NCBI GenBank assembly: GCA_001770415.1 | Contig: MEQX01000016.1 | Span: 60,519 to 124,518 of the forward strand | From: Betaproteobacteria bacterium RIFCSPLOWO2_02_FULL_63_19 | Lineage (GTDB): Bacteria; Pseudomonadota; Gammaproteobacteria; Burkholderiales; SG8-39 | DNA: 64,000 bases | Reading direction: 5' to 3' | Shown here: positions 11,191 through 16,075 of the stretch, piece by piece | Layout of the letters: each line of letters begins with the position of its first letter | Numbering within the stretch: position 1 is the first letter of the stretch | Notes under the pieces: model-generated | What the model was told of the DNA's origin: nothing | What the model saw: the letters and a program-made list of their open reading frames with translations, nothing else | Database searches by the model: none | Made by a program: the position numbers and the translations under genes

Positions 11191-13070
<1,880 letters not shown>

Positions 13071-13113
13071 TCAAGGACTTCGAACTAATTCGGCTGGTTC
13101 GGGAACCTTCTCG

Positions 13114-13250
13114 TCTGGCTGCCGATCATACAGCCAGATGATTGTGAAATCGTCTCCCGCTTCACCTCCCTGAGCGGGTGCCTTAAATCATTAAGGCATT
13201 TTGGTCCTCGGGCTTTAATCCCCTTTTAGCCCGGGGGCTTTTGTTTTTTT
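13114..13250 (+). ncRNA. Candidate intergenic structured sRNA ending in a Rho-independent terminator
   Basis: Four consecutive hairpins: TCTGGCTG/CAGCCAGA (13114-13138), CCCGCT/AGCGGG with loop TCACCTCCCTG (13156-13178), TGCCTTAA/TTAAGGCA (13179-13198), terminator at 13206-13250; no ORF explains the conserved-looking + strand terminator. Confidence 0.55.
13206..13250 (+). terminator. Rho-independent terminator
   Basis: cctcgggct / agcccgggg 9-bp stem (one U-G pair), followed by cttttgttttttt. Confidence 0.85.
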
Positions 13251-13300
13251 GCTGGGGCGGGCGCGTGCGCGGATAGCCGAGCCGTTGGATTAGTTGCAGG

Positions 13301-13930
13301 TCATCGCCGGTCTGTGTCTTTGAGCGCATCGTTCGTCATGAACCACGCGCCAAGCACCGTTTCCGCATCATCAATGCCAGTGCGCTTAAGGCTCGAAAAG
13401 AGTTGTGCCGACCAGCAGGATGAGGCAGCGTGCAGTGCATGTCGAACCCCTCGAAGGGTATGCAGCGCCGCAGAGCGCGACAATTTATCCGTCTTGGTCA
13501 GTAGAGCATGAACCGGCTTGCGAGTCGGGCCGAACCACTCGAGAAGGTCCGTGTCGAGTTGCGTAAGCGGGTGGCGTATGTCCATTACGAGCACGAGGCC
13601 GACGAGTTGCCTGCGAGTGCGCAAATACTCGCCAAGAACCCGACCCCACGGCGCGCGCGTGGCAGCCGGAACCTGAGCGTAACCATAACCTGGTAGATCA
13701 ACGAGAAACCGCCCGTCGCCCAGGCCGAAAAAATTGATCAACTGGGTGCGGCCTGGCGTCTTGCTGACGCGGGCCAGTCGGCGCTGGCCGGTGAGCGTGT
13801 TTATCACGCTCGATTTGCCTGAATTCGAGCGGCCGGCGAAGGCGATTTCGCACGTGCTTTCGTTCGGCAGCGCCATGAGGTCCGGCGCGCTCGTCAAGAA
13901 GCTGGCCCGGCGGAATAGTGGCGCGCTCAT
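13301..13930 (-). CDS. engB: Ribosome biogenesis GTP-binding protein YsxC/EngB (YihA)
   Basis: IAFAGRSNSGKSSVINTLTGQ, KTPGRTQLINFF, VDLPGYGYA, LLTKTDKLS. Confidence 0.94.
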   Translation of the reverse strand: MSAPLFRRASFLTSAPDLMALPNESTCEIAFAGRSNSGKSSVINTLTGQRRLARVSKTPGRTQLINFFGLGDGRFLVDLPGYGYAQVPAATRAPWGRVLGEYLRTRRQLVGLVLVMDIRHPLTQLDTDLLEWFGPTRKPVHALLTKTDKLSRSAALHTLRGVRHALHAASSCWSAQLFSSLKRTGIDDAETVLGAWFMTNDALKDTDRR

Positions 13931-14022
13931 GGTACGGGAGAAGGCCTGCAAAGCTGCTGGCTGGGTATGTTTAAGCTACGGTAGAATATCAGCTTTTCAT
14001 TCTCGCCCCGCCCAAAGGAGAT

Positions 14023-14667
14023 GTGATGAAAAGAGCCATCTTGAGTTCGGCTCTTTCGCTTTCGGTCCTGGTCGCCTCCTCCTGCGTGGCGGCGCAACCG
14101 TCGGCGAAGCCTGACCTTGCAAAGGGACAGGCCATCGCTTCCCAGGCGTGCGCCGCCTGCCACGGTGCCGATGGAAACAGCCCGACGCCGGCGAACCCTC
14201 ATCTTGCCGGCCAGGTGCGTGAGTACCTTGAGAAGCAACTCCACAATTTCAAGGTAGCGCAGGGCAATAAGCCTGAACGGGACAACGCGATCATGGCCGG
14301 AATGGTCGCGAATTTGTCCACCGACGATATGCGCAACGTCGCCGCGTATTTCGCTGGTAGCAAGCTCAGCGGCGGCGTTTCGCGGAGTCGTGAACTGGTT
14401 TTCCTGGGCCAGAAGCTGTACCGGGCCGGTAACCCCGCTACCGGGCTGCCTGCCTGCGCAGGCTGCCATGGCCCGACCGGCGCCGGCATTCCGTCTCAGT
14501 ATCCGCGCCTGGCAGGACAGTATGCCGAGTACACACTCGCCCAGCTGAAAGCATTCCACGACAAGCGCCGGGCGAACGACACCAACAGGATGATGCGTTC
14601 GATTGCCGCGAAAATGAGCGATACAGAAATGCGTGCGGTCAGCGACTACATTGCCGGCCTTCGCTGA
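14023..14667 (+). CDS. Cytochrome c4 (diheme c-type cytochrome)
   Basis: Signal peptide; two heme motifs CAACH and CAGCH; internal duplication; located beside engB as in many betaproteobacteria. Confidence 0.92.
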   Translation: MMKRAILSSALSLSVLVASSCVAAQPSAKPDLAKGQAIASQACAACHGADGNSPTPANPHLAGQVREYLEKQLHNFKVAQGNKPERDNAIMAGMVANLSTDDMRNVAAYFAGSKLSGGVSRSRELVFLGQKLYRAGNPATGLPACAGCHGPTGAGIPSQYPRLAGQYAEYTLAQLKAFHDKRRANDTNRMMRSIAAKMSDTEMRAVSDYIAGLR

Positions 14668-14831: not shown

Positions 14832-15332
14832 ATGAATAGCGAAGACATCCTCGAGCAGATTCCGCGGCTGCGGCGCTACGCGCGCGCGCTGCTCGGGGAC
14901 CGTTATGCGGCCGACGATCTGGTGCAGGACACGCTGGAGCGGGCACTGAGCAAGTATCACCTCTGGCGCGCGGGAAGCGATCTGAGAGCCTGGCTCTTCG
15001 CGATAATGCACAACGTGTTTGTAAATCAGGTGCGCGGCAGGCGCGCCGAAATTGAAAGGACGATGGAAGAACTTCCCGACATCGCAGTAAGGGAAACTCA
15101 TTCGGACGCTCTCGAAGTGGCCGACGTGGACCGCGCCTTGCGGGCGTTACCCGACGAGCAGCGCGAGGTACTGCTGTTGGTCGTGCTCGAAGAGATGAGC
15201 TACGAGGAAGCAAGCCGCGCGCTAAACGTGCCGATCGGCACCGTGATGTCGCGTCTGTCGCGCGGCCGGGAGCGCATGCGCCGGCTTATCGCGGGCGCAC
15301 GGCAATCGGTACCGTTGCAGGTGGTGAAATGA
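14832..15332 (+). CDS. ECF-type RNA polymerase sigma factor
   Basis: Region 2 ADDLVQDTLERAL...LRAWLFAIMHNVF; region 4 LPDEQREVLLLVVLEEMSYEEASRALNVPIGTVMSRLSRGRE. Confidence 0.93.
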   Translation: MNSEDILEQIPRLRRYARALLGDRYAADDLVQDTLERALSKYHLWRAGSDLRAWLFAIMHNVFVNQVRGRRAEIERTMEELPDIAVRETHSDALEVADVDRALRALPDEQREVLLLVVLEEMSYEEASRALNVPIGTVMSRLSRGRERMRRLIAGARQSVPLQVVK

Positions 15333-16075
15333 CTCAAGTGCTCGAAGACGATCTGCATGCATTCGTAGACGGAGTTCTGGATCCGGCGCGAAGCGCCGAG
15401 GTGACGGCTTACTTGGCCGACCGGCCCGATGAGGCAGAGCGCGTGCGCGCATATCGCGCACAGAACGCGGGCTTGCACGCGCTTTTTGATCATGTGCTCA
15501 ACGAGCCGGTTCCGGCGGGCTTGAAAGTGACGAGGCCAGCGCGGCGCTGGCGTCCGATCGCGCTTGCTGCGAGCGTGTTGTTCACGGGCGTGGCGATAGG
15601 ATGGATGATTGCGCGCGGTGGCGTCACGCAGGCCTACCGGACGACGCCCTCTCTGGCGCACTCGGCAGCCATTGCGCACGCTGTGTATTCACCGGAGGTG
15701 CGGCATCCGGTCGAGGTCGGTGCCGATCAGGAAGACCATCTGGTCAGATGGTTATCCAAACGGTTGGGGACCCAGCTTCGCGCGCCGAAGCTCGTGCCGC
15801 TTGGCTATGATCTGGTCGGAGGCCGGTTGCTGTCGGGACCACGAGGTCCCGTTGCGCAGTTCATGTACCAGGAAGCGACCGGCAAGCGGCTCACCCTTTA
15901 CGTGTCGGGGGTGCAGGGCGACATGCCTGACACGGCGTTTCGGTTCAGCCAGGAGGGTAGTGTCTCCGTCTTTTACTGGGTCGATCGAGACTACGGCTAC
16001 GCCCTTTCCGGAGACATCAAACGCGAGGCGCTGCTCGCGGTCGCAACCGCGGTCTATCGGCAACTTAGTCCATGA
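15329..16075 (+). CDS. Transmembrane anti-sigma factor
   Basis: DDLHAFVDGVLDPARSAEVTAYLADRP N-terminal motif, single TM (IALAASVLFTGVAIGWMIA), overlaps the ECF stop codon. Confidence 0.85.
   Translation: MTQVLEDDLHAFVDGVLDPARSAEVTAYLADRPDEAERVRAYRAQNAGLHALFDHVLNEPVPAGLKVTRPARRWRPIALAASVLFTGVAIGWMIARGGVTQAYRTTPSLAHSAAIAHAVYSPEVRHPVEVGADQEDHLVRWLSKRLGTQLRAPKLVPLGYDLVGGRLLSGPRGPVAQFMYQEATGKRLTLYVSGVQGDMPDTAFRFSQEGSVSVFYWVDRDYGYALSGDIKREALLAVATAVYRQLSP

Follow-up and report, generated by a model that had tools for sequence, protein, structure and literature searches.

The anti-hemB family of small RNAs (Rfam RF02837) is widespread in Burkholderiales, opportunistic pathogens included. In Burkholderia cenocepacia the family is represented by ncS04, a 105-nt transcript that was mapped by dRNA-Seq and 3′RACE, and Hfq binding has been stated for it (PMC5688073). 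A further copy of the family is listed for Burkholderia pseudomallei (PMC3521395). In the literature, no regulator or function was found reported for anti-hemB. ErsA of Pseudomonas is encoded in the "polA-engB intergenic region" (PMC8575079) and is transcribed from a σ22 promoter (PMC7565897). The sRNA sX13 of Xanthomonas is encoded downstream of polA and carries C-rich loops that act on G-rich mRNA motifs near translation starts; the authors of that study raised the question of related sRNAs at the polA locus in other bacteria (PMC3771888). A literature search, whose coverage stopped short of subscription papers, found no paper linking anti-hemB with σE, ErsA or sX13.

Here, an anti-hemB gene is described from a 64-kb window, i.e. 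the whole stretch of DNA that was analysed. What is new is a σE-type promoter, a 5′ hairpin missing from the family model and a link to the polA/engB locus. The data are best explained, and in our view probably so, by a trans-acting anti-Shine-Dalgarno sRNA of the anti-hemB family that would be controlled by RpoE and would probably act together with Hfq.

An anti-hemB gene between hemB and engB

The gap between hemB and engB measures 269 bp and contains a real sRNA gene on the + strand (Table 1). That both flanking genes lie on the minus strand, as originally described, agrees with their coordinates. RF02837 was the single Rfam match in a scan of the whole window, and the alignment covered the model over its full length (1-81). 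The original prediction had called the sRNA unannotated; the Rfam check showed that the family is already catalogued, and its novelty is thus refuted. By contrast, three lines of evidence back the proposal of a + strand sRNA with a C-rich anti-Shine-Dalgarno loop: the Rfam match, covariation and the published Hfq-binding 105-nt ncS04.

The arrangement typical of RF02837, in which a seed hairpin (CCCGCUUC-CCUCCCUG-AGCGGG) is followed by a second hairpin and then by the terminator, is present in the window, and the locus resembles RF02837 and ncS04 in loop, hairpins, terminator, hemB neighbourhood and length. The gene is predicted to extend from ~13136 to 13246/13250, giving an RNA of ~105-115 nt, and does not start at 13114 as first proposed; the length forecast at that time, 110-170 nt, comes near the likely ~110 nt. 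Counted from the hairpin base to the U tract, the RNAs predicted in relatives have a median length of 103.5 nt, in agreement with the 105 nt measured for ncS04. Searching with a model trained on relatives revealed one copy of the sRNA in the source genome. A minus-strand open reading frame at 13183-13329 (48 amino acids) had no Pfam match.

Table 1. Coordinates of the sRNA gene, its predicted signals and its neighbours in the window
Feature	Position	Strand	Support or remark
hemB (porphobilinogen synthase)	12024-13031	-	Diverges from the sRNA gene; adjoins it in 28/28 order relatives
-35 element, σE/AlgU type, GGGAACC	13101-13107	+	Conserved in relatives
-10 element, GATCATA	13124-13130	+	15-nt spacer to GAACCT
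5′ hairpin, AGATGATT-GTGA-AATCGTCT	13136-13155	+	Covariation and fold
RF02837 (anti-hemB) match	13153-13246	+	66.8 bits (gathering threshold 49.5), E = 1.9e-13
Seed hairpin, CCCGCT-TCACCTCCCTG-AGCGGG, with anti-Shine-Dalgarno loop	13156-13178	+	Loop conservation, RF02837
Second hairpin, TGCCTTAA-ATCA-TTAAGGCA	13179-13198	+	Alignment, fold and covariation
Intrinsic terminator with second C-rich loop (AATCCCCTTTT) and U tract	13203-13250	+	Stem 13206-13237
engB/yihA/ysxC	13301-13951	-	Converges on the sRNA gene; adjoins it in 28/28 order and 15/25 class relatives

Outside the hemB-engB locus, a genome of the same order carries an RF02837 match of 65.7 bits (L032, G167:C1:4219089-4219176) that lacks GAAC and is possibly a paralogue. 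Some distant relatives have 2-4 tandem anti-hemB-type copies (L036, L039, L049; G231:C33:13148-13886; G323:C3:217579-218301), several of which carry their own GAAACTT/GGTC promoter.

Conserved structure of the RNA

Structural conservation was assessed in an alignment, anchored on the CCTCCCTG loop, of 26 sequences from the same taxonomic order, that of the window included. Four helices hold across this alignment, with 93.9% of cells paired, a value that fell to 51-55% when the partner was slid by one column. Covariation, which the original prediction had named as a check on homologous gaps, was present: 13 of the 27 pairs changed on both sides, compared with 5.1 in shuffled alignments (0/500 as high). 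In addition, the + strand of 13150-13246 folds better than each of 200 dinucleotide shuffles (z = -4.8).

The 5′ hairpin was absent from both the original prediction and the Rfam model. In the 26 sequences, 96.8% of its cells are paired and compensatory changes occur at all six counted pairs, and in a fold begun at 13136 it closes the 5′ end of the RNA exactly. Among class relatives, a simple stem search supported it weakly, with a mean of 6.7 pairs versus 5.4 in shuffles. The RF02837 model, with 81 positions, omits both this covarying hairpin and the promoter, which suggests that it should be extended at its 5′ end. The seed loop CCTCCCTG is invariant in the order alignment; given that most pairs of the seed hairpin do not vary, covariation says little about that helix. 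Nearly all order relatives keep TCCCC in their terminator loop. The conserved TCCCCTTT in this loop (13215-13227) is a possible second anti-Shine-Dalgarno motif, comparable with the C-rich loops of sX13.

Four hairpins had been proposed originally. The CCCGCT/AGCGGG hairpin, the ATCA hairpin and the U-tract terminator were borne out, but the first, TCTGGCTG/CAGCCAGA (13114-13121/13131-13138), was not: in 27 order relatives its positions pair in 39% of cases, against ~37.5% expected. Since this is chance level, TCTGGCTG/CAGCCAGA is not an RNA hairpin; in the window it is a chance inverted repeat lying across the promoter spacer and the -10 element.

A σE-type promoter motif precedes the RNA

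Promoters recognised by RpoE/AlgU have the form GAACTT-N15/16-GTCTAA or TCTGA. In nearly every relative, GGAAC(C/T)T(T) is found 54-74 nt upstream of the loop and is followed after ~15-17 nt by TCTTA, TCTAA, TCATA or GTCAGA at the -10 position. The loci used for the counts that follow were gathered by RNA similarity and not by promoter. GAAC[TCA] occupies the -35 place in 26/28 order loci, compared with 1-7 in control windows; for class entries the figure is 19/26, compared with 0-3. The complete two-part motif was present at 21 of the 28 order loci, compared with a mean of 1.05 and a maximum of 4 in 20 control windows, and at 16/21 class loci, compared with a control mean of 0.15 and maximum of 1; on the opposite strand it occurred 0 times and once, respectively. 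The window member is slightly off-consensus, both its -35 and its -10 element deviating from the commonest GGAACTT/TCTTA. Transcription is predicted to start near 13136, at the base of the 5′ hairpin.

The source genome encodes Hfq and RpoE (319 bits; cut-off, 236), and GAACTA-N15-GTCAC is found ~110 nt upstream of its rpoE start. A σ70 housekeeping promoter was also considered for the sRNA, and a scan of the locus found none. The conserved σE-type promoter gives anti-hemB a direct, testable candidate regulator and, together with the gene neighbours, suggests an envelope-stress RNA. Against strong stress induction stands B. cenocepacia ncS04, whose level did not change significantly under any of the conditions tabulated for qPCR, among them osmotic stress and low pH (PMC5688073).

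Alternatively, the GGAAC element might be another regulatory site, serving hemB or a different ECF sigma factor such as that encoded at 14832-15332, with the sRNA using some other sigma factor. The variable -10 region and the several ECF factors in the source genome favour this reading, but the two-part motif has σE spacing and is confined almost wholly to one strand, the housekeeping scan was negative, the local ECF factor reaches no more than 44 bits with the RpoE model, and the Pseudomonas members that share motif and locus are established σ22 targets (PMC7565897). It is accordingly considered unlikely, and RpoE control is preferred. The local ECF gene overlaps a likely anti-sigma gene (15329-16075) and adjoins that for cytochrome c4 (14023-14667). 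With its score far under the RpoE-model cut-off of 236 its product is not RpoE-type, and it had no equivalog match above its cut-off.

Gene neighbourhood and relation to ErsA and sX13

At all 28 order loci, hemB and engB flank the sRNA, and cytochrome c4 follows further out. The 25 class-level loci, which were found with the Rfam model, present a different picture: hemB is no longer a neighbour, 15 have engB downstream, 12 have polA upstream and 12 have cytochrome c4, and at least one of engB, polA and cytochrome c4 is found in 22.

These neighbourhoods bear on whether the main task of the RNA is to control heme synthesis through the adjacent hemB, either as an antisense RNA or by acting on the leader region. 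The Rfam name implies such a role, and hemB adjoins the gene in every order relative. The B. cenocepacia RNA Bc7, "Burkholderia RNA 7", is taken here to be of the anti-hemB family. A hemB mRNA target has been predicted for Bc7 (PMC6321483). Against this, hemB and the sRNA gene point away from each other without overlapping in the annotation, no CAGGGAGG-type site is found in the start region of hemB, and class relatives keep loop and promoter beside polA/engB without hemB. Because the sRNA also occurs where hemB is not a neighbour, a hemB-specific role is quite improbable as the conserved function, for which the name "anti-hemB" is most likely a misnomer.

The class-level neighbourhood is that of ErsA. 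To follow the polA locus more widely, 84,980 named species genomes were scanned for the end of polA followed by GAACTT 45-75 nt later, yielding 113 stretches, among them many from Pseudomonas and Stutzerimonas as well as some from Rhodanobacter, Lysobacteraceae, Thiohalobacter, Thiocapsa, Thioalkalivibrio, Sedimenticola and Endozoicomonas. Among 73 distinct polA-linked GAACTT sites, in whose choice the -10 played no part, GTC follows after a 15-16-nt spacer in 52, compared with ~2.3 expected. A covariance model trained on the order sequences (R1) scored many polA-linked loci at the predicted place, with E values of 3.5e-9 for Steroidobacteraceae, 1.3e-7 for Thiohalobacter, 1.9e-7 for Nevskiales and 2.5e-5 to 2e-3 for Rhodanobacter loci with the promoter. 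The Pseudomonas ErsA loci (P. otitidis and others, L064-L141) gave E values of 0.18-0.78 over 0.5 Mb or were unreported; sequence homology between the RNA bodies of ErsA and anti-hemB is thus not significant with this model.

ErsA and the window member are alike in having engB alongside and a σE/σ22-type promoter motif at the corresponding place, and anti-hemB would share with ErsA the RBS-blocking type of action (PMC8575079, PMC7565897). The other flank of ErsA, however, is polA, where the window has hemB, and ErsA lacks the CCUCCCUG hairpin. sX13, which was compared by description and without a Xanthomonas copy, likewise has hairpins with C-rich loops and lies downstream of polA like the gammaproteobacterial relatives (PMC3771888). 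It differs in being Hfq-independent, in having three 4C/5C loops and in being described as confined to Xanthomonadaceae; the window has no polA beside the sRNA, whose C-rich motifs are confined to two loops, CCUCCC in the seed hairpin and UCCCCU in the terminator.

Because motif and neighbours match at polA/engB, locus and promoter motif are common to anti-hemB and ErsA. Common descent of the two is plausible, though their RNA bodies show no significant sequence homology. A broader proposal is that anti-hemB, ErsA and sX13 represent one ancient σE-controlled C-rich-loop sRNA gene at the polA/engB locus, which would predate the split between Burkholderiales and other Gammaproteobacteria (GTDB taxonomy), hemB having replaced polA in the Burkholderiales line; we regard this proposal as evenly balanced between acceptance and rejection. 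The shared locus bears on the question of polA-locus sRNAs raised in the sX13 paper (PMC3771888).

Proposed mechanism, related seeds and targets

RNA polymerase carrying RpoE would transcribe the sRNA from the promoter at 13101-13130, giving a trans-acting transcript that would run from ~13136 to the terminator at 13237-13250. Its rigid hairpin loop would present CCUCCCUG, which is able to cover a GGGAGG Shine-Dalgarno sequence. Pairing of CCUCCCUG with purine-rich ribosome-binding sites would block translation, probably with the assistance of Hfq. For the source organism we infer RpoE control, the anti-Shine-Dalgarno mechanism and the use of Hfq from the features described above. Masking of RBS regions is the mode of action of ErsA, S17 and NgncR_162/163 (PMC6321483, PMC11722255, PMC9973317).

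The expected seed action was examined in a target search for CAGGGAGG-N4-10-ATG, which returned 91 ORFs in eight genomes; a matched control motif, CAAGGAGG, returned 85. Exported proteins made up 28/91 of the CAGGGAGG-site genes and 30/85 of the controls, and TctC receptors 11/91 and 17/85, so that neither was enriched. The periplasmic TctC receptors, which had been considered as a target class, were rejected since the control motif is equally rich in them. The target prediction originally recommended for the CCUCCC seed therefore pointed to no enriched class, and no regulon is claimed. Receptors of the TctC/Bug tripartite transporters are greatly expanded in these bacteria, the number scored in a single genome ranging from 29 to at least 115 (genomes G000-G046).

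In a further reading, the C-rich loop would bind Shine-Dalgarno sequences indiscriminately, and the RNA would serve as a sponge or titrate ribosomes and have no defined regulon. Such a role would fit a seed complementary to a generic Shine-Dalgarno and the lack of an enriched target class, but it is very doubtful given that CCUCCCUG is longer and more conserved than generic anti-Shine-Dalgarno pairing requires and that similar seeds have defined targets (ncS27, S17 and sX13; PMC10987360, PMC11722255, PMC3771888). Pairing with specific ribosome-binding sites is preferred.

The original prediction had also drawn an analogy with Neisseria RcoF/NmsR and Burkholderia ncS27, whose C/U-rich seed loops reportedly repress translation. 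The analogy stands for the type of seed only: the double-hairpin RNAs of RF02278 (ncS27/bdhR1), Bordetella S17 and Neisseria NmsR/RcoF share with the window an unpaired C/U-rich seed for ribosome-binding sites, but they belong to other loci and have other structures. The tandem-sibling arrangement of NmsR/RcoF, in which SL2 carries the anti-RBS loop, was compared by description and differs from the single copy in the source genome. Membership of the ncS27/bdhR1 family was rejected, as 13000-13350 has no RF02278 match at E values up to 1 and the genome holds a separate copy elsewhere. That bdhR1/ncS27-type sRNA (L407, G000:C70:34555-34616) has the loop CACCCTCCTCC, and two different C-rich-loop sRNAs thus coexist in the source genome.
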